Source of the DNA: Embleya scabrispora DSM 41855
GTDB lineage: Bacteria > Actinomycetota > Actinomycetes > Streptomycetales > Streptomycetaceae
DNA length: 64,000 nucleotides
Reading direction: 5' to 3'
Assembly: GCF_000372745.1 (NCBI RefSeq)
Contig: NZ_KB889662.1
Span: 124,001-188,000 of the forward strand
The position numbers were made by a program, and so were the translations under genes. Positions 9,646 through 16,843 of the stretch are shown here, piece after piece. The notes below the pieces were generated by a model that searched no databases, was not told where the DNA came from, and saw only the letters and a list, made by a program, of their open reading frames with translations. Every line of letters starts with the position of its first letter. Position 1 is the stretch's first letter.

Positions 9646-10929
9646 CTATGTTACCGGAGAGTAATAGGAGCCTAGTGCCGGCCGCTCACACTTGTCACCG
9701 GTGCGGGGACCGAACGAGAGCAAGGTCACCGGGGCGCCCAGCTCGGCGGCGACGAATTCCGGCCACTGCGCCGGCGCGGGCGCAGCCCGCAGTACCGGCC
9801 GCGCGGCGAACATGTGCCCGGTCAGCCGCTCGGCACGCGCGAGGTCGGGCACCGGGCCCACCGAAGGTTCCACGCCCTCGTACGACCCGGCCACGGCCAC
9901 GCCCGCGCGCCCGAGGACATCCGCGTGGGTGAGCGCCAAGCCGTGCACTCCCCCGCACACCGCGACCGCGTACCGATGCGCCGGCACGTCGAAGTGGCCG
10001 ACCCGGAAGGCGCCCTGCCACCGCCCGGTCCCGTTGTGCGGGTCCGGCAGCGCGGCGGTCAGCGCCGCGTCCTCGGTGGGCAGCGGCCCCGCGCCGTGCC
10101 GCGTCGTGTAGGTGCGCAGCACGCCGAGCCGGTACAGCGCCTCGCCCGCCTCGGCGGCCAGTGTCTCGGCGTTCGCGAAGGTCGTGGTCGACCACGTCGT
10201 GTACGGATGGAACCCGTGCCACTCGTCCAGCAGCACACCCTGCGCGCCCTCGAAGACCACCGGGCCGCCGCGCAGCAGCTCGCGCGCGTACGCGCGATCC
10301 ACCATCCGCACCGCCCGCCCGAAGCCCAGGAAGGCCGCCACGCACGCCGACACGTCCGGACCCAGGGGTGTCCCGAATTCGGCGCTCAGCGCGTCCCGTA
10401 CGGCCGTCAACCGGCGGCGCAGCAGCCCCGGCGAGGCGCAGTCCCCCACCCGCGGCGCGTCCTGCGGGTGGGCCAGCGCGAACGCCGCCGTCTCGCCCAC
10501 CCCCATCCCGCACGACCCGTGCCGGTGCGCCCCGCGCGCCAGCTCCCGGGCCCGGTTGGCCGCCGCGTGGTACGGCGTGGTCAACAGCGCCTCCCGGTCC
10601 GCGGTCAGCAGCGCGAGCGGCTCGGGCACGCCGAGCGCGCGCAGGTGCTCGGCCTCGGCGGCCAGCGCGAGCGGGTCCACCAGCATGAACCGGGACAGAT
10701 GGGTGCGGGTGCCCGGGGTGAAGGTGCCGGAGCCGAACTGGGCGAACGTGTGGTGCCGGCCGTCGTCGGTGACCACGTTGTGCGCGGCCTGCGCACCGCC
10801 GTTGAAGCGCACCACGGCGTGCACCGGCTGCCCCTCCTCGCGCGCTCGCGCGCACAACCGGTCCACCGTGGTGCCCTTGCCCGCGTCGCCGAACCCCAGG
10901 TCGACGACCGCGATATGACGTGGTGTCAC
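9646..10929 (-). CDS. adenylosuccinate synthetase-like protein with altered active site
   Basis: 427 aa from GTG at 10929, which overlaps the stop of the vWA gene by 4 bp (GTGA). The frame upstream belongs to the vWA gene's shadow. The PurA fold is evident: GFGDAGKGTTVD aligns with the GDEGKGK loop and keeps the catalytic Asp (residue 15). VVRFNGGAQAAHN aligns with GGHNAGHT and keeps the second His (residue 50) but loses the first His. GVLRTYTTRHGAGPLPTED and ALTHADVL match later PurA blocks. The aspartate-binding arginine loop (TGRPRRCGW in true PurA) is here TGRWQGAFRVG. It is therefore probably a ligase of the PurA superfamily with a different acceptor, not housekeeping PurA. Last gene of the four-gene operon. 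Confidence 0.85.
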   Translation of the reverse strand: MTPRHIAVVDLGFGDAGKGTTVDRLCARAREEGQPVHAVVRFNGGAQAAHNVVTDDGRHHTFAQFGSGTFTPGTRTHLSRFMLVDPLALAAEAEHLRALGVPEPLALLTADREALLTTPYHAAANRARELARGAHRHGSCGMGVGETAAFALAHPQDAPRVGDCASPGLLRRRLTAVRDALSAEFGTPLGPDVSACVAAFLGFGRAVRMVDRAYARELLRGGPVVFEGAQGVLLDEWHGFHPYTTWSTTTFANAETLAAEAGEALYRLGVLRTYTTRHGAGPLPTEDAALTAALPDPHNGTGRWQGAFRVGHFDVPAHRYAVAVCGGVHGLALTHADVLGRAGVAVAGSYEGVEPSVGPVPDLARAERLTGHMFAARPVLRAAPAPAQWPEFVAAELGAPVTLLSFGPRTGDKCERPALGSYYSPVT

Positions 10930-11930
10930 AGACGCGGGGTGCCCGCGTCGCCGGTGCCGTCCAGCCCGGGCAGCGAGCCGGAGACGGCCACCCCGCCGCC
11001 GGTGCGGGCGTAGGAGGCCAGCGCCTTGGAGACGTTGGCGACCTGCGCCGTGGCGCCCACCTCGCGCAGGTGCTCCAAGCCCTCGTCCAGGTCGATCGCG
11101 TCCTCGGCGAGGCCGATGGTCAGCGCGATCGTCTCGCAGACGCCGTCCGGGTCGTCGAGTTCGATCACGTTCTGCCGCAGCAGGCCCTTCCACTCGCCGA
11201 GCACCTCGGCGTCGCCCACGTAGGACGAACCGGCCGGGAGGATGTAGTAGACCTCGTACACGCGCTGCAATTCGGCCAGGATCCGCTCGATCGGTATGTC
11301 CTCGGCGAGGTCGTCGCCGATGAATTCCTTCACCTCGGCGCGGCGCACCTTGCGGTAGGGCATCTCGTCGCCGATCACGAACAGGTAGCCGCGCTTGCCG
11401 CGCTTGTCGTGGCAGTCGATCGAGGTGTGCCGGGCCATGAAGTACAGGGCCAGTTCGTACGATTCGCGCTTTTGCCCGCCGCCGCCGCCCTCCAGAAGGA
11501 TGTTGCCGAGCTGGTCGTCCATCCGGTTGTCCGACTCGAACTGACCGATCTGCAACGGAACCCGATCGCAGGTCGCGTCGCCGATCGCGCCGAACATGAT
11601 CTGCGGGTCCTGCACGTAGCCCTTGCGCAGCAGCAGGCCGAACAGCTCGGGCAGCTTGGTCTGCAGGGTCTGCGGAACCCGCAACATCGAACCGGTCACG
11701 TCGAAGAGCACCGAGATGGCCAGCGACGTGGGGTGCTCGTCGCTGTCCCGGCTCTCGCGCGTGCCCGCCTGCCCCGGGTCCAGGTCGTCGTGCGCCTTCC
11801 AGGCGCTGTGCGGCGTGCTCCGCTTGGTGACGTGGTCGTAGTGGAACGCACTGCGGCCGGCGGCCGCGTTGTAGCTCTGTGCCGCGTCGTAGACGTTGGT
11901 GGACCAGTTGCCACTGCCCATGGTGCTCAC
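10926..11930 (-). CDS. vWA-domain protein
   Basis: 334 aa, cytosolic (no signal peptide or membrane segment). A von Willebrand A fold starts near residue 70, with the MIDAS metal site DVTGSM at 77-82 and a later GAIGDATCD as probable second MIDAS loop. ELFGLLLRKGYVQDPQIMFG and YLFVIGDEMPYRKV belong to the same fold. The C-terminal ~60 residues are helical and end in a Gly-rich tail. Such proteins scaffold metal-dependent assemblies, as TerY does in Ter systems. It is 58 bp downstream of the J-domain/kinase gene and overlaps the PurA-like start by 4 bp, so co-expression is expected. GTG start with a weak GGGGA. Confidence 0.85.
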   Translation of the reverse strand: MSTMGSGNWSTNVYDAAQSYNAAAGRSAFHYDHVTKRSTPHSAWKAHDDLDPGQAGTRESRDSDEHPTSLAISVLFDVTGSMLRVPQTLQTKLPELFGLLLRKGYVQDPQIMFGAIGDATCDRVPLQIGQFESDNRMDDQLGNILLEGGGGGQKRESYELALYFMARHTSIDCHDKRGKRGYLFVIGDEMPYRKVRRAEVKEFIGDDLAEDIPIERILAELQRVYEVYYILPAGSSYVGDAEVLGEWKGLLRQNVIELDDPDGVCETIALTIGLAEDAIDLDEGLEHLREVGATAQVANVSKALASYARTGGGVAVSGSLPGLDGTGDAGTPRL

Positions 11931-11988
11931 TCCCCGATCAAGGCGTTGGGATCTGTACGCGGGGTCGGCCGTGCGGGCCGACCCGGCG

Positions 11989-13203
11989 CTATACGGAATC
12001 GACCGGCTTGGCGCCGGTGCGGGCGGTGCCGGCGCCGGCTGCCGGGCCCTTGGACTCGCGGCGCGTGGGCATCGCGAACGGCCGGAAGCGGCGCGGGCCG
12101 TAGAGCTTGCCGAGCAGTTCGTCCAGTTCGCCGAGCAGCTTCCACGCGTCGTGCGGGCGACGGGCGGGAGCGGGCAGCGAGCAGCCTCGGGCGAAGCGCA
12201 GCAGCGGCTTGGGCGCGTCCGCGGCGAGCAGGCCGGTCATGCACCGGGTCGCCATGTACACGTCGGCGGCGGTCTCCGGCGGCTGCTTGCCGGGGATCTC
12301 CGGCGGATACAGGTCCGCGTGCCGATCGATCATCGCGGGCACGTGCTCGACCGCCTTGGCGCGCAGGATCGCCTCCGGCCGGTCGGCGTCGCCCGGGCCG
12401 TCGAGCAGCACCGAGTAGCACCAGTCGACCAGGACCAGTCCGTGCTCGCGCGGGTGGATCAGCACGTGGTCGGGGGTGATCGCGCCGTGCACGACGCCGG
12501 CCCGGTGCGCGTATCCGATCGCGACCAGCAGGCGGCGCCACATCCAGGCCACGTCGCGCGCGTCCAGGCCGTCCGGGTACGCCTCGCGCACCTCGGTCAA
12601 CGAGCGGAAGCCACGCACCCGTTCGAGTACGTTGGCGCGCCGCTCGACGCCGCTCTTGGCGTCCCGGTGCCGGAAGGTCTCGATCAGCCGGGGCACGTAG
12701 TTCGCGTACTGGGGGTCACCCTCGCGGGCGATCCGCTCCAGCGCGGTGGCCTCGCGCTCCATCAGGTCGTTGTCGCTCACCGATCGCGGCAGCTTGAGCA
12801 ACGCCCGTGCCTCGCCGTCGTCCTCGGCCCGGTAGCCGACCTTGTACAGCGTGGCGATGTCGCCGCTCGCGCGCTCCTCGCCGACCGAGTAGACCCGGCG
12901 CTTGGTGGTGATCACCACCTGACGACCGGTCACGCCGGTGATGTCCTGCTGATAGCGGTTCCACAGCTCGCCCAGGTCGGTGAACGCGCGGGCGGCCTCG
13001 GCTCGTCGATCGGTGGGCGCGGTGTCCGGGTGGAGCAGGCGGGCGAGTTGGCGGTAGGTGCGGTTGCCGGCTCGCAGGCATGCCTCCGGTGTGCCGTCGT
13101 AGGGCCCGAAGACGCCCTGCGGATCCGGCGCGCCGCTCAGCAGGTCGAGCGCGGCCGCGAAGGTCGTGGGGGTGGTCGAGGTGGTGCCGGGCGTCCTTGT
13201 CAT
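11989..13203 (-). CDS. J-domain-like / degenerate Ser-Thr kinase fusion
   Basis: 404 aa from ATG at 13203, which overlaps the Nudix stop by 4 bp (ATGA). Residues ~15-87 resemble a J domain, with YRQLARLLHPD placing HPD at 58-60 and a following amphipathic helix. Residues ~100-370 are a eukaryotic-type kinase fold: the VAIK lysine is probably Lys137 (ARALLKLPR). The catalytic loop reads HGAITPDHVL at 239-248 in place of HRDLKPENLL, so the catalytic Asp, the Lys and the Asn are all replaced. DFG is reduced to VDW (Asp260). This looks like a pseudokinase or non-standard phosphotransferase recruited by a J-like module. No transmembrane helix is seen. Confidence 0.82.
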   Translation of the reverse strand: MTRTPGTTSTTPTTFAAALDLLSGAPDPQGVFGPYDGTPEACLRAGNRTYRQLARLLHPDTAPTDRRAEAARAFTDLGELWNRYQQDITGVTGRQVVITTKRRVYSVGEERASGDIATLYKVGYRAEDDGEARALLKLPRSVSDNDLMEREATALERIAREGDPQYANYVPRLIETFRHRDAKSGVERRANVLERVRGFRSLTEVREAYPDGLDARDVAWMWRRLLVAIGYAHRAGVVHGAITPDHVLIHPREHGLVLVDWCYSVLLDGPGDADRPEAILRAKAVEHVPAMIDRHADLYPPEIPGKQPPETAADVYMATRCMTGLLAADAPKPLLRFARGCSLPAPARRPHDAWKLLGELDELLGKLYGPRRFRPFAMPTRRESKGPAAGAGTARTGAKPVDSV

Positions 13204-14054
13204 CGGGAGTCCTCCTCCGGGGACGGGCGCAGCAGCGCCGGGTGCAGCAGACGTGCGGGGCCCGCGCGGTACAGCCGGGCGCGGCGACCGCCGCGAGCCC
13301 CGCCGCGCGCGGTGGTGGCGCCGGTGTCCTCGACGAAGCCGGGCACCGACAGCACCTTGCGATGGAAGTTGCCGGCGTGCATGGGCTGTCCCCACACCGC
13401 CTGGTAGACCTCGCGCAGTTCGGTGATGGTGAACTCCTCACCCGCGAACGCGGTGGCCAGTGGTGAGTATTCGAGCTTGGCGCGGGCGCGCTCCAGGCCG
13501 TCGGCGAGGATGCGCGCGTGGTCGAAGGCCAGCGTGTTCGGATCGACCTCGGCGACCGGCACCCACGACGCGTGTGCGGCGTCGCCGCCGGCGGTCGGGT
13601 CGGGCAGGTCCGGCGCGAAGGCCAGGTGCGCGACCGAGACCACGCGCATCCTCGGATCGCGCCCGGGCGCGCCGTAGGTGCCCAGTTGTTCGAGGTGGAC
13701 CCGGTCGAGCCGGGCACCGGCGGCGAGCCCGGTCTCCTCGGCCAGTTCGCGCTCGGCGGCCTCGCCGAGGTCCTCCTCGTGCCGGGTGCCGTCCGCCCCG
13801 TCCACCGGCCGCACGAAGCCGCCGGGCAGCGCGAGTCGGCCCGCGAAGGGCATCTCGCCGCGCCGCACGAGCAGCACGTGCAGTGCCTTGGGCGGATCCT
13901 CGCCGGTGCCGTCCGGGTCGGTGTCCGCCCGGCCGGCGCCGCCGAGTCGGCGAATCGTCAGCGCGACGATGTCGACGGTCACCGCGATCGGGTCCCAGGC
14001 TCTGGGATCGTAGGACGCGAGCCAGTCGCGTTCGGTGGTGGCGGTGTCGGCCAT
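13200..14054 (-). CDS. Nudix domain / winged-helix (NrtR-like) protein
   Basis: 284 aa from ATG at 14054 behind GGAGGG. Residues ~20-170 are a Nudix domain with an intact signature end (RELAEETGL); relative to the consensus there is a ~10-residue insertion after the leading glycines (LPGGFVRP). Residues ~185-235 (KLEYSPLATAF, EFTITELREVYQAVWG, NFHRKVL) are the winged-helix DNA-binding domain typical of NrtR, which senses ADP-ribose and related NAD metabolites. The tail is Arg/Gly-rich. An intact Nudix box leaves open that it is also a hydrolase. First gene of the operon; a palindrome upstream at 14155-14173 is a candidate autoregulatory site. Confidence 0.87.
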   Translation of the reverse strand: MADTATTERDWLASYDPRAWDPIAVTVDIVALTIRRLGGAGRADTDPDGTGEDPPKALHVLLVRRGEMPFAGRLALPGGFVRPVDGADGTRHEEDLGEAAERELAEETGLAAGARLDRVHLEQLGTYGAPGRDPRMRVVSVAHLAFAPDLPDPTAGGDAAHASWVPVAEVDPNTLAFDHARILADGLERARAKLEYSPLATAFAGEEFTITELREVYQAVWGQPMHAGNFHRKVLSVPGFVEDTGATTARGGARGGRRARLYRAGPARLLHPALLRPSPEEDSR

Positions 14055-14136: not shown

Positions 14137-14175
14137 GTTGTTCTCCGAATGAGATGTTCTTAGGTTGAGAACAAC
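14137..14175. promoter_or_regulatory. candidate operator in Nudix/hydrolase divergent region
   Basis: The 9-bp arms GTTGTTCTC (14137-14145) and GAGAACAAC (14167-14175) are an exact inverted repeat. A tighter near-palindrome, TGTTCTTAGGTTGAGAACA, occupies 14155-14173. It lies between the divergent starts at 14054 and 14319, suited to control both. I infer that the NrtR-like protein binds it; the motif has not been compared with known NrtR sites. Confidence 0.6.
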
Positions 14176-14318
14176 ATACACCGCGACCCGAACACCGGCG
14201 AGGGGGTTATCCCTCGAAGAGTCGCCTCCCTCTGGTAGGCATGGGCGATCCATTCGCCGCCCGCGTGCGGGCCACCGGCGGCGGCCCCGAACACCCGAGC
14301 AGATGCGGAGAAGGTGGC

Positions 14319-15140
14319 ATGTCCGATATGACCGGTCCCGACATGAACGCCGTCGTGGGCGAGCAGGACCTACTGCTCGTCACGCTCGACGCGCTGCGCT
14401 ACGACGTGGCCGTCGAACTCGCCGCGGCCGGCCGGCTGCCCAACCTCTCCCGGGTCCTGCCCGAGGGCGGCTGGCAGCGCCGGTACACCCCGGCCAGCCT
14501 CGCCTTCGCCGCGCACACCGCGTTCCTGGCGGGCTACCTGCCCACCCCGGCGGAGCCCGGCCCGCATCCGCGCCTGTTCGCCGCCCGGCTCGGCGACACC
14601 GAGTCCACGAACGCGCACACGTGGCTGTTCGACACCCCGGACCTGCCCAGCGCGCTGACCAAGGCCGGCTACCACACCGCCTGCATCGGCGGCGTCGGCT
14701 GCTTCGACAAGCAGGGCGCGCACGACTCGGTGCTGCCCGGCATGTTCGCCGAGAGCCACTGGGACCCCGAACTCGGCGTCACCTCACCGATCTCGTTCGA
14801 AGCCCAGGTCGCCCGCGCCGAACTGGTGGTCGGCGGCCTCGACCCGGATCGCCGGCTCTTCCTGCTCGTCGACGTCGCCGCCATCGCCCAACCGAACTGG
14901 TTCCACACCCCCGGCGCCACCGCCGCCGACGGCGACAACCGCGACACCCACGCCGCCGCGCTGGAGTACGTGGACCGGCACATCGGCCGGCTGTTTCGCG
15001 CGATGAGCTGCCGCAGGCCCTGCTTCGCGATCGTCACCGGCGACCACGGCACCGCCTACGACGAGCGCGCGGAGGCCGGCCGCGAGGTGGTGTGGACCGT
15101 CCCCTACGCACACTTCACGATGAGCCCCGGCGAGTGGTGA
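14319..15140 (+). CDS. alkaline-phosphatase-fold hydrolase, STM4013/SEN3800-like
   Basis: 273 aa from ATG at 14319, with GGAGAAGG 4 bp upstream; longer starts lack a binding site. The fold is that of the sulfatase/phosphatase superfamily: LLLVTLDALRYDVAVE gives the N-terminal metal Asp, SLAFAAHTAFLAGYLPTP supplies the nucleophile region, and AIVTGDHGTAYDE gives the C-terminal metal-binding DHG. The whole resembles the STM4013 family, normally encoded with two radical-SAM proteins and an ATP-grasp protein (STM4011, 4012, 4014). None of those is adjacent here. It is instead divergent from the Nudix-kinase-vWA-PurA-like operon. Substrate unknown. Confidence 0.8.
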   Translation: MSDMTGPDMNAVVGEQDLLLVTLDALRYDVAVELAAAGRLPNLSRVLPEGGWQRRYTPASLAFAAHTAFLAGYLPTPAEPGPHPRLFAARLGDTESTNAHTWLFDTPDLPSALTKAGYHTACIGGVGCFDKQGAHDSVLPGMFAESHWDPELGVTSPISFEAQVARAELVVGGLDPDRRLFLLVDVAAIAQPNWFHTPGATAADGDNRDTHAAALEYVDRHIGRLFRAMSCRRPCFAIVTGDHGTAYDERAEAGREVVWTVPYAHFTMSPGEW

Positions 15141-15225: not shown

Positions 15226-15301
15226 GCCCCAATAGCTCAGTCGGTAGAGCGTCTCCATGGTAAGGAGAAGGTCTACGGTTCGATTCCGTATTGGGGCTCC
15301 A
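15226..15301 (+). tRNA. tRNA-Thr (anticodon GGT)
   Basis: 76 nt cloverleaf. The acceptor arm GCCCCAA (15226-15232) pairs with TTGGGGC (15291-15297), discriminator T, and CCA is encoded. The anticodon stem TCTCC/GGAGA encloses ATGGTAA, giving anticodon GGT, which reads ACC. The T arm contains GGTTCGATTCC. A strong hairpin follows immediately. Confidence 0.96.
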
Positions 15302-15443: not shown

Positions 15444-16298
15444 TCAGCCGAACCGGGCCGTCAATCGGGCGTCCAGCCCGGCGAGATGGTCCCGCCCGTA
15501 CGGCCCGTTCTCCAACCCCGCCAGCAGCGCGGGCGGCAGGTCCTGGGCGTACTCCGCCGAGCAACTCGCCGCCGCCAGCGCGATGGTGGCCACCGTGTCC
15601 ACGTCGCCGGTGTACGCCACGCACGCCTGCAACAACGCGGCCGTGCCGGTGTGTGCGGCCAGCGCGGTGATCGCCGCGCGGGTGCTGTCCATACCCGGCG
15701 AGCCGACCTTGCCGCGCCACGGCCGCGCCCACACGGCCGGGTCCGTCGAGGCCGGCAACGTCGCCGCCAGCCACGTCGGCAACTCGGCGACCGGGCCCAG
15801 GTCGTACCGGCAGTAGTGCACCGCCAGCGCCGCCGCGGTCGCCGAGGTCATCCCGCCGAGTGTGCGGTGGGTGATCCGGGCCTGCAGCGCGGCCGTGCGG
15901 CGCACGTCGGCGAGATCCGGCAGCAGGCCCAGCACACCGGCGCGCATCGCCGCGCCGCTCTTGTCGCTTTCCGGCCGCAACACCTCCAGCAGCTCCGTGC
16001 CGTCGGCGACTTCCTCCAAAACACCCCGAAATCCCCGCGCGTATCCGGCGCGCGCGTCGCGCTTGTACGCCCGCACGAAAAGGTCCGCGAGCGCCGGTAT
16101 CCCGTGATCGTCGCCGAGCAACCATTCGGCGACCGCGATACTCATCTGCGTGTCGTCGGTGTATCGGCCGGGCAGCACGTCACGATGACGAGGATGCTGC
16201 ACATAACCGGCGAGTGTGTTGCCTCGCACGACGAACGGTCGATCCGCGTATTCGAACCCGGCTCCGTACGCGTCTCCGACCGCGAGTTCCACCAACAT
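15444..16298 (-). CDS. ADP-ribosylglycohydrolase family protein
   Basis: 284 aa from ATG at 16298; the longer frame upstream has no family match and no binding site. The ARH/DraG fold is shown by LAVGDAYGAGFEYA at the N-terminus, the metal-binding TDDT at 47-50 (RYTDDTQMSIAVAEWLL) and the C-terminal TGDVDTVATIALAAAS carrying the D-x-D-T metal ligands. These enzymes remove ADP-ribose from proteins, nucleic acids or small molecules using two metal ions. It is about 1.4 kb from the NrtR-like Nudix gene, on the same strand but separated by the divergent hydrolase and the tRNA. A functional link through ADP-ribose is possible but unproven. Confidence 0.92.
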   Translation of the reverse strand: MLVELAVGDAYGAGFEYADRPFVVRGNTLAGYVQHPRHRDVLPGRYTDDTQMSIAVAEWLLGDDHGIPALADLFVRAYKRDARAGYARGFRGVLEEVADGTELLEVLRPESDKSGAAMRAGVLGLLPDLADVRRTAALQARITHRTLGGMTSATAAALAVHYCRYDLGPVAELPTWLAATLPASTDPAVWARPWRGKVGSPGMDSTRAAITALAAHTGTAALLQACVAYTGDVDTVATIALAAASCSAEYAQDLPPALLAGLENGPYGRDHLAGLDARLTARFG

Positions 16299-16843
16299 CG
16301 GGACCACACCCTCCACTGCGGCGGTCCGCCGTCCATCCGTGGCGACGGCGCCCCACCTCGCCGACTCGAGCCGGTAGAGCGTACCGTTGCCCGGGGGCGG
16401 CAACCTGATGGTCCGTCAGTCGTCGCGTGGGGAGCCCTGCGTGCGCCGGAGTGCGAGGGCGTACGCCACAATTCGGTACGGACCCGCGCGCACCACCTGT
16501 CCCTCTCCGGAGTGATGCTCCTCGCGCCGCGTCCAACTGCAAGACGTTTCCGCGCCGCGGCGGATACCGTCAACGATGATCACGCGATCGTCGGGACATA
16601 CCGGAGGTACCAACCGGCTCGTCCGAACGGGTGATAACGGGTGATGTGGCTCGTTCACACGGCCGCTGGGGATTGTGGCCGGCTCGTCCGAGCGGCGACC
16701 GCACCGACATTGCACGGTGACGGATCGCCCCCGAGGAGGAAAGGTGGGGCGGTGGATCGACCATCGTGGGCGCCGGGCACAGCGTGCGTGCAGACGTGCC
16801 GGGGGACCGGCACGTGCGCCCGGACCACCGTGGGGAGCGCAGG
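16299..16843. other. intergenic region without recognised gene
   Basis: A divergent spacer between the ADP-ribosylglycohydrolase and the GGDEF-EAL gene. It must hold both promoters. AACGGGTGAT occurs twice in tandem at 16626-16635 and 16636-16645. Open frames here have no recognisable motif. Confidence 0.6.

Follow-up and report, generated by a model that had tools for sequence, protein, structure and literature searches.

A group of four genes in Embleya scabrispora DSM 41855 raises the question of what a PurA relative does in the company of a Nudix regulator, a degenerate kinase and a vWA protein, and whether the four belong together at all. Here we report a computational analysis of this locus, which lies in a stretch of 64,000 nucleotides that was analysed as a whole (the window). 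All four genes are on the minus strand and encode a Nudix/NrtR regulator (13200-14054), a J-domain (HPD) pseudokinase (11989-13203), a vWA protein (10926-11930) and a PurA-like protein, PurAL (9646-10929). A sequence-only reading had described them as tightly packed, and they were found where it placed them; both of its 4-bp start/stop overlaps are real (regulator/pseudokinase, ATGA at 13203-13200; vWA/PurAL, GTGA at 10929-10926). Its 58-bp middle gap holds if the vWA gene starts with the GTG at 11930. Homologues have a common MGSG start that fits the ATG at 11921, so this start is likely, and it would widen the gap to 67 bp. A sigma-70 promoter scan of the locus found no promoter, and the single terminator-like site is not more than is seen in shuffled sequence. 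The ARG (ADP-ribosylglycohydrolase) gene next door (15444-16403) was considered as a further member and matched in just 1/80 loci (L035; tblastn with the window gene, some loci sitting on contigs that end early); it is therefore outside the cassette.

The adjacency of the four genes is far beyond chance. In an even sample of the class, the vWA gene occurred in 32 of 335 genomes and PurAL in the same 32, always adjoining, with the pseudokinase in 31 of them; in a sample of the phylum, both were found in the same 2 of 396 genomes, where the next PurA match stood at 2.2e-56. All four genes are present in 68 of the 80 named actinobacterial loci. Comparison of gene content thus makes a well-shown case for one co-inherited cassette, as the sequence-only reading had claimed of a self-contained unit, and the neighbourhood check that it had proposed found homologues conserved in adjacency and not scattered. 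The regulator and the pseudokinase are each dispensable, because the pseudokinase is absent, with no cut by a contig end, from 6/80 loci and both are missing from locus L093. Both were also absent within the ~1.5-kb flanks covered in 10 genomes of one genus in the same order (G038, G039, G041-G043, G046, G048-G051). Besides the four genes, no ORF cluster obtained by simple ORF calling recurred in more than 14 of the 80 loci. A literature search found no description of the cassette, parts of which could yet be covered by work on Ter systems and the NrtR family.

PurAL is homologous to PurA (Pfam Adenylsucc_synt, 196.6 bits; cut-off 27) and corresponds to phrog_1211 (E 3e-73), but misses the cut-offs of the PurA NCBIfam equivalog (151.7 vs 402 bits) and of the PurZ model NF038379 (32.1 vs 300 bits). 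Its residues were compared in an alignment of 77 rows (the window and 76 of 78 loci) in the numbering of E. coli 1ade, with catalytic and ligand roles that we take to be those of PurA. D13, K16, H41, Q224 and the guanine-site D333 are the same as in PurA in 77/77 rows, and K331 is His. Five changes are each found in every row (N38 to Q, T129 to C, V273 to H, T300 to W, T301 to Q), R303 is deleted in 77/77 and R143 is lost. The IMP-phosphate ligands (N38, T129, R143) and the aspartate ligands (T300, T301, R303, R305) are thereby replaced or deleted throughout, whereas the same genome keeps a distinct, canonical PurA. By its sequence, PurAL forms its own branch within the PurA family, one without IMP-phosphate or aspartate ligands. 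Normal adenylosuccinate synthesis, which the earlier reading had set down as a refuting outcome, is unlikely, as far as sequence alone can tell, because these ligands are gone in 77/77 rows. PurAL appears to be an enzyme with an active site remade to take another substrate, and its chemistry is inferred; if this is right, the family, often annotated as purine synthesis, probably does something else.

The domain calls for the two middle proteins were weak in sequence searches and were settled by structure models, which match integrin beta I domains and protein kinases, respectively. The vWA protein had no Pfam match and no sequence match to any solved structure; its model resembles integrin beta I domains (VIA Z 16.0, rmsd 3.6 over 195 residues, to 6om2_D), and the vWA matches were integrins and pilus adhesins among the Foldseek rows listed and integrins among the VIA rows listed. 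Its DVTGSM sequence forms a DxTxS MIDAS motif in which D77, T79 and S81 are invariant in 38 rows (the residue tables hold 78 rows for vWA and 76 for Nudix, window included), and the protein corresponds to phrog_2971 (E 4.7e-79). The pseudokinase falls under the Pfam cut-offs for DnaJ (18.6 vs 27.8 bits) and Pkinase (14.5 vs 31.7 bits), and Kdo kinase is the only kinase family above its cut-off (23.0 vs 21.3 bits); its model matches protein kinases (Foldseek E 2.6e-10). The catalytic HRD Asp is gone in all 64 rows (Ala in 63, Ser in one) and the loop Asn is His in all 64, which comprise the window and 63 of 73 loci with a match, those short or with internal stops being excluded. The HPD motif is conserved (H 53/54, P 56/57, D 56/57, in rows with a letter) and lies at 58-60 between modelled helices 39-57 and 64-89. 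The Acetobacter and Agrobacterium versions have lost the beta3 Lys and DFG Asp as well, which makes ATP use an unlikely shared function. An apparently conserved C-terminal kinase tail in the consensus line was an artefact of few rows (0/64 on recount). PADLOC returned weak partial kinase matches only, and the Mokosh defence system was rejected, since only positions 10-280 of the 1112 in MkoA match (E 2.1e-12), which is not full-length.

The regulator, like members of the NrtR family, combines a Nudix domain (Pfam NUDIX, 60.5 bits; cut-off 21.1) with a winged helix (NrtR_WHD, 47.6 bits; cut-off 27), and misses the NCBIfam NF050029 (NrtR) equivalog cut-off (98.5 vs 400 bits). Its best PDB match is 3gz5 (E 1.4e-21), which we take to be a Shewanella NrtR. 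The Nudix motif, REL-x-EE-TG, is largely intact (R102, E106 and T108 invariant, E103 and E107 at least 90%, in 13 rows). Upstream lie two putative operators on the minus strand: operator 1 (14153-14175), the 23-bp palindrome GTTGTTCTCAACCTAAGAACATC (28.5 bits), and, 16 bp on and overlapping it, operator 2 (14137-14159), the palindrome GAACATCTCATTCGGAGAACAAC (26.3 bits, 3 mismatches). Operator 1 is this genome's only match with 2 mismatches, and none has fewer. The palindrome precedes the regulator gene in 76/77 loci (L060 is the one miss), with two or more sites in 71/77; autoregulation is therefore likely on this pattern. A held-out test (L060, the window, L033 and L035 set aside) found it in 37/37 loci, its training sites having been picked by the full model, so that it is not wholly independent. 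When the upstream stretch was excluded, 2 of 1500 control stretches exceeded 15 bits (maximum 33.2); among stretches possibly overlapping the operator, 15/760 random ones exceeded 8 bits and, in a second control, 23/740 exceeded 15 bits. In a search of 10 genomes, the site with fewest mismatches was upstream of the operon in eight. In the remaining two the operon site was tied: in G066 with others at 3 mismatches, in G020 with a site next to a gene that, by eye, resembles a tRNA-dihydrouridine synthase. No common pathway emerged, by eye, from seven stretches surrounding other weak operator-like sites.

These features set the locus beside known Nudix-controlled systems. In PMC6800001, the mycobacterial NrtR palindrome is given as GTTTTCGA-N7-TCGAAAAC, which the 23-bp palindrome resembles; the M. 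smegmatis NrtR is described there as having a degenerate Nudix motif, in contrast to the regulator here. The sites here are in tandem at 16 bp and stand upstream of this operon, not of nadABC. In the ARG-centred systems of Nudix transcription factors (PMC9503650), such a factor and a vWA protein share one neighbourhood, as here, but ADP-ribosylglycohydrolase is not conserved with our cassette, whose core is PurAL.

We tentatively read the operon, at somewhat less than an even chance, as a self-regulated, horizontally shared, NAD/ADP-ribose-responsive phage-host conflict module with a GTP-dependent ligase of new specificity at its centre. The NrtR-like protein would bind the putative tandem palindrome and repress the operon, and an ADP-ribose-type nucleotide, freed when infection or stress consumes NAD, would release it from the DNA. 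PurAL would use GTP to phosphorylate a nucleotide-like substrate at an oxo or carbonyl group, and would join to it a nucleophile other than aspartate. The vWA protein (via its metal site) and the pseudokinase may together hold or deliver the substrate in a non-catalytic complex, the J-domain partner binding the client and recruiting DnaK. Phages, with the same core, would target the host chemistry on which the bacterial cassette acts. The NrtR-like regulator (both Pfam domains over cut-off), the degenerate kinase with its J module (catalytic Asp absent, HPD hairpin modelled), the MIDAS vWA protein and the PurA relative with a remodelled pocket, all named in the sequence-only reading, were borne out together with the unit they form, and its NAD/ADP-ribose link is indirect: it would run through the NrtR relative with its palindrome, plasmid Nudix genes, NAMPT and an NMN-adenylyltransferase-like gene. 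A bolder proposal is doubtful, in which PurAL, next to PurA and PurZ, forms a third functional branch of their family. As a GTP-dependent ligase it would make or break an NAD/ADP-ribose-linked conjugate with the vWA-J-pseudokinase complex; it would have diversified in large phages, sometimes with an NAD-rebuilding pathway, before actinobacteria adopted it, controlled by an ADP-ribose-type switch, in a phage-host conflict over NAD. If the conflict-module reading is right, bacteria, plasmids and phages share an overlooked module, with a new reaction close to NAD metabolism, an arena of much of the conflict between phages and their hosts.

Isolated phages and plasmids also carry the vWA-PurAL pair, a side of its distribution that lay beyond the sequence-only reading. 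Among 47 viral-contig loci, some of whose IMG/VR contigs may not be phages, 44 carry the pair, 31 of these with the pseudokinase. A Nudix gene adjoins the cassette in 5/6 plasmid stretches read. NAMPT lies in or near the pair in 5/47 viral loci, which represent three lineages, because L167 and L188 share the same sequence over NAMPT and L172 is 94% like them; one of the five also has the NMN-adenylyltransferase-like gene. In the 30 viral loci with both ORFs (bacterial set, 55 four-protein loci and the window), Q38, H41, Q224, H273 and Q301 are found in 30/30 and C at 129 in 25/30. In a tree that has two rows of PurA as outgroup and draws its bacterial rows solely from close relatives, bacterial PurAL tentatively nests among phage sequences. 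Several observations count against the conflict module: an NrtR match is lacking in 43/47 viral loci, the phage NAMPT and NMN adenylyltransferase have no match in the 80 bacterial loci, the PurAL of a Vibrio phage retains PurA-like N38, T42 and T129 and has N at 333, and the phage neighbours are mostly ordinary among the first 25 families listed in each of two scans. The last result covers 195 ORFs, comprising 194 of 201 listed (plus strand, at least 120 aa; seven viral loci omitted) and the hand-chosen NAMPT ORF of L185, which biases the NAMPT count in the scan. In the Rhizobium and Vibrio phages read, no kinase match lay near vWA-PurAL, and the actinobacterial operator model reached at best 8.1 bits in seven plasmid/phage stretches, four of which have other palindromes in that place. 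A Ter link is hinted at: PRTases and HAD enzymes are named in PMC7824862 as signal-making parts of Ter systems, and PRTase_3 and HAD genes lie near vWA-PurAL in the single Rhizobium phage neighbourhood scanned.

Other readings share parts of this evidence. The tie of one enzyme to two seemingly non-catalytic partners would suit a protein-modification machine, in which the vWA protein and the pseudokinase bring a client, possibly ADP-ribosylated, that PurAL modifies or repairs with GTP, and a vWA chaperone for ADP-ribosylated clients has been proposed in Nudix-regulated systems (PMC9503650); PurAL nevertheless retains the catalytic residues of a small-molecule enzyme, and we consider this unlikely. 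Re-amination or mending of damaged (oxo-purine) NAD, ADP-ribose or deoxynucleotides is a distinctly unlikely alternative: PurA chemistry targets a 6-oxo purine, the catalytic Asp and Gln are retained, and Nudix partners and, in phage versions, NAMPT and the NMN-adenylyltransferase-like gene are at hand, but the four-gene set has no lyase-type partner and, as the aspartate ligands are gone, the amine donor would be a different one.

The seemingly non-catalytic partners, and the retention of D333 (77/77) with His at 331, could also mean that PurAL is a GTP-binding switch or sensor, which is improbable given that D13, H41 and Q224, kept in 77/77 rows, go beyond the needs of binding. PurZ, the phage 2-aminoadenylosuccinate synthetase, is a PurA paralogue of new specificity, and PurAL occurs in many large-phage contigs; that PurAL, in the manner of PurZ, makes a modified deoxynucleotide for phage DNA is nonetheless very improbable, since the PurZ model gives 32.1 of 300 bits, the partners differ and bacterial genomes contain the same cassette together with a regulator of its own. 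That PurAL is just an additional adenylosuccinate synthetase of the ordinary kind, with neighbours unrelated to it, is scarcely credible: the PurA homology is clear (Pfam 196.6 bits), but the IMP-phosphate and aspartate ligands are altered in 77/77, the equivalog score is 151.7 of 402, and PurAL is linked to vWA in 32/32 genomes.

The conflict-module reading is open to laboratory test because a Bxz1-type phage carries the cassette. In genes 267-270 of mycobacteriophage Gizmo the order kinase-vWA-PurAL is identical to that in the window, but no Nudix gene adjoins it and an extra 88-aa ORF separates vWA and PurAL. The annotation of these phage genes goes no further than kinase, hypothetical and 2-aminooxy adenylosuccinate synthetase.

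The cassette occupies four consecutive genes on the minus strand of the window, namely a Nudix/NrtR regulator (13200-14054), a J-domain pseudokinase (11989-13203), a vWA protein (10926-11930) and PurAL (9646-10929), a relative of adenylosuccinate synthetase (PurA). Both outer junctions overlap by 4 bp. The sequence-only reading took these genes to be one unit, and the neighbourhood comparison bore this out. A class sample of 335 genomes was searched with three separate profiles (vWA; PurAL, E ≤ 1e-75; kinase, E ≤ 1e-20), which recovered vWA in 32 genomes, PurAL in the identical 32, and the kinase in 31 of those (exception, G687; the vWA and kinase matches of G555 were only partial). The vWA and PurAL genes were on one contig with less than 300 bp between them in 32/32 genomes, and the kinase shared their contig in 30/31 (on a different contig in G480). 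In a phylum-wide sample of 396 genomes, vWA was found in two, both of which also had a PurAL-strength match; the next-best PurA match dropped to 2.2e-56, so no continuum between PurAL and PurA was seen. The vWA gene occurred in 23 of 61 relatives (source genome counted), and PurAL adjoined it in 28 of 30 fetched loci, the remaining two being short contig ends.

A scan of the whole collection yielded at least 525 relatives; among the best 80, profiles detected all four genes in 68 loci. The kinase was missing in six, five were truncated by contig ends (the regulator being absent from three of these and PurAL from the other two), and one locus (L093) held only vWA and PurAL. Ten genomes from one genus of the same order encode vWA and mostly PurAL, with neither kinase nor regulator within flanks of approximately 1.5 kb. 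Because the kinase, the regulator or both are missing from some loci that keep vWA and PurAL, these two form the firmest pair of the cassette. Gene order and strand were scored by script as identical in 65/68 four-gene loci; the exceptions (L057, L066 and L070) stem from stop-to-stop frames, and the matches there show the usual order. Inter-protein distances across 55 loci and the window were correlated (Mantel r 0.69-0.82, 0/999 permutations), a result that shared host ancestry can likewise yield. Beyond the four genes, no ORF cluster in the outer flanks exceeded 14/80 loci. A 526-aa ORF separates regulator and kinase in Actinoplanes italicus (L085, 4668-6245).

The vWA proteins of Embleya hyalina (L035) and Streptomyces sp. 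SID3343 (L033) each share 91% identity with that of the window. Divergent from the operon lies an STM4013/SEN3800-family hydrolase gene (14241-15140, plus strand; 323.3 bits vs. cut-off 250), matched at the operon in 2/80 loci, which are these two closest relatives. It is followed by a tRNA-Thr (ggt) gene (15226-15301, plus strand) and, 1.4 kb upstream of the operon, an ADP-ribosylglycohydrolase-family gene (15444-16403, minus strand; Pfam 76.6 bits), which was matched in E. hyalina alone among the 80 loci; the SID3343 contig stops before that position.

The homology of PurAL to PurA is clear (Pfam 196.6 bits; match to 1ade_A, the E. coli PurA chain, E 1.9e-29), yet PurAL scores under the cut-offs for PurA (151.7 vs. 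402) and PurZ (32.1 vs. 300), and the genome encodes a separate canonical PurA elsewhere (613.4 bits). In E. coli numbering, all 77 aligned PurAL rows retain D13, K16, H41, Q224 and D333, and all 77 carry the replacements N38->Q, T42->N, T129->C, S240->W, N242->T, V273->H, T300->W, T301->Q and K331->H and the deletion of R303; R143 is lost and position R305 is F, W or L. We take N38, T129 and R143 to be the IMP phosphate ligands of PurA, and T300-R305 and V273 to belong to its aspartate site. Strong selection for a new substrate would be expected to produce a pocket that is both altered and invariant. V273->H, T301->Q and the R303 deletion were present in 14/14 diverse PurAL sequences, including those of phages and plasmids, and N38->Q and T129->C in 13/14, the Vibrio phage retaining the PurA letters. 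The viral PurAL ORFs have H273, Q301, Q38, H41 and Q224 in 30/30, C129 in 25, W300 in 22, D333 in 28 and D13 in 29 (plus one gap). Public records of mycobacteriophage Gizmo (L145, 10286-11614) and related phages name the protein 2-aminooxy adenylosuccinate synthetase or PurA-like adenylosuccinate synthetase, which is probably misleading because the aspartate ligands are missing. In a tree with thin outgroup and sampling, bacterial PurAL is nested within the more diverse phage and plasmid versions, which suggests a phage origin.

The kinase model (pLDDT 87.6) has a protein-kinase fold preceded by J-type helices. The HRD Asp is replaced by Ala in 63/64 rows and by Ser in one, and the loop Asn by His in 64/64; the β3 Lys is retained in 64/64 and the DFG Asp in 63/64. 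The Acetobacter and Agrobacterium plasmid kinases have also lost β3 Lys and DFG Asp, those of Rhodococcus and Tsukamurella the DFG Asp, and the Gizmo kinase has β3 Lys, DFG Asp and loop Asn and lacks the HRD Asp. Phosphotransfer is therefore unlikely as a common role. The vWA protein has no Pfam match; its model (pLDDT 82.5) shows the fold of an integrin-type I domain, at Z 16.0 and rmsd 3.6 over 195 residues, and the DVTGSM motif is invariant.

In the regulator, both the NUDIX and the NrtR_WHD domain score above cut-off. Its Nudix motif REL-x-EE-TG is mostly intact, unlike that of M. smegmatis NrtR (PMC6800001); in the window protein, the stretch ahead of the motif exceeds classical spacing. 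A 23-bp palindrome (GTTnTTCTC-N5-GAGAAnnAC) precedes the regulator in 76/77 regions, and in the exception (L060) the gene start is misplaced, as the match begins only at residue 175. The palindrome was found in 37/37 held-out regions, and 2/1500 control stretches exceeded 15 bits. At least two sites occur in 71/77 regions, spaced by exactly 16 bp in 93/94 cases; the two putative operators of the window lie at 14137-14175. In the 11.4-Mb genome a single site, the one before the operon, fits the search pattern with two mismatches, and the fewest-mismatch site lies before the operon in 8/10 genomes. The mycobacterial NrtR palindrome is likewise 23 bp, starting with GTT and ending with AAC (PMC6800001). 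An autoregulated switch is therefore likely. Plasmid versions bear different palindromes before the first gene (e.g. Tsukamurella, Rhodococcus).

At the level of sequence, these comparisons establish the gene unit, the new PurAL pocket, the pseudokinase and the operator-like palindrome. The operon may be induced by an ADP-ribose-type nucleotide, and PurAL would then perform a GTP-driven ligation of a nucleotide-like substrate, possibly delivered by the vWA protein and J-pseudokinase, to a nucleophile other than aspartate. Among the published systems consulted, the closest are those of PMC9503650 (section 3.8), which resemble the cassette in having both a vWA protein and a regulator of the Nudix type; as presented in that section they centre on ADP-ribosylglycohydrolase, whereas this gene is not conserved in the cassette (1/80 loci). 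The gene set was nowhere described in the literature searched, and any earlier mention would lower its novelty. The parts all come from known superfamilies, and what is new is the gene set and the PurAL branch.

The three core proteins matched phage families (phrog_3043, E 2.8e-50; phrog_2971, 4.7e-79; phrog_1211, 3e-73), and vWA relatives occurred in 208 of 50,697 phage records (chiefly Mycobacterium, 189, and among the others Rhizobium, 10, and Vibrio, 6) and 21 of 72,556 plasmids. Gizmo carries kinase, vWA, an 88-aa ORF and PurAL in a run; the ORF (10023-10289) belongs to phrog_3263, a family of no assigned function. One Rhizobium and one Vibrio phage examined have vWA-PurAL and no kinase match. 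NUDIX, PRTase_3, HAD and HIRAN genes lie close to the pair in the Rhizobium phage (L146, 3929-11275), a neighbourhood that recalls Ter-linked metabolite genes. In the six plasmid neighbourhoods examined, the order was kinase-vWA-PurAL-NUDIX in Tsukamurella and Rhodococcus, and an NrtR-like gene faces the kinase in Agrobacterium, Acetobacter (detected by tblastn only, over two frames) and Rhodovulum; the Rhodovulum stretch had no PurAL match and the Variovorax stretch no Nudix match.

All 47 viral-contig loci have PurAL (44) or the kinase (34), with both in 31 and an NrtR-like gene in four. One (L171) reads NrtR, vWA, NMN adenylyltransferase/Nudix-like protein (E 5.9e-9, under its equivalog cut-off), NAMPT (577.5 bits vs. 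cut-off 405), PurAL and kinase. NAMPT follows NrtR and precedes vWA in L167 (4-bp overlap with NrtR), L172 and L188, and lies approximately 4 kb upstream of vWA in L185. It thus occurs in 5/47 viral loci, representing three lineages, and in 0/80 bacterial loci. Because large phages encode NAMPT not infrequently, this count is weak by itself, and the location of NAMPT within the run argues more strongly for an NAD link; against that link, most viral neighbour genes look ordinary. Three phage contigs (L196, L197 and L200) carry a divergent vWA-PurAL pair, and an ORF of L197 (1394-2233), with relatives in the other two, resembles a PARG-type protein by eye.
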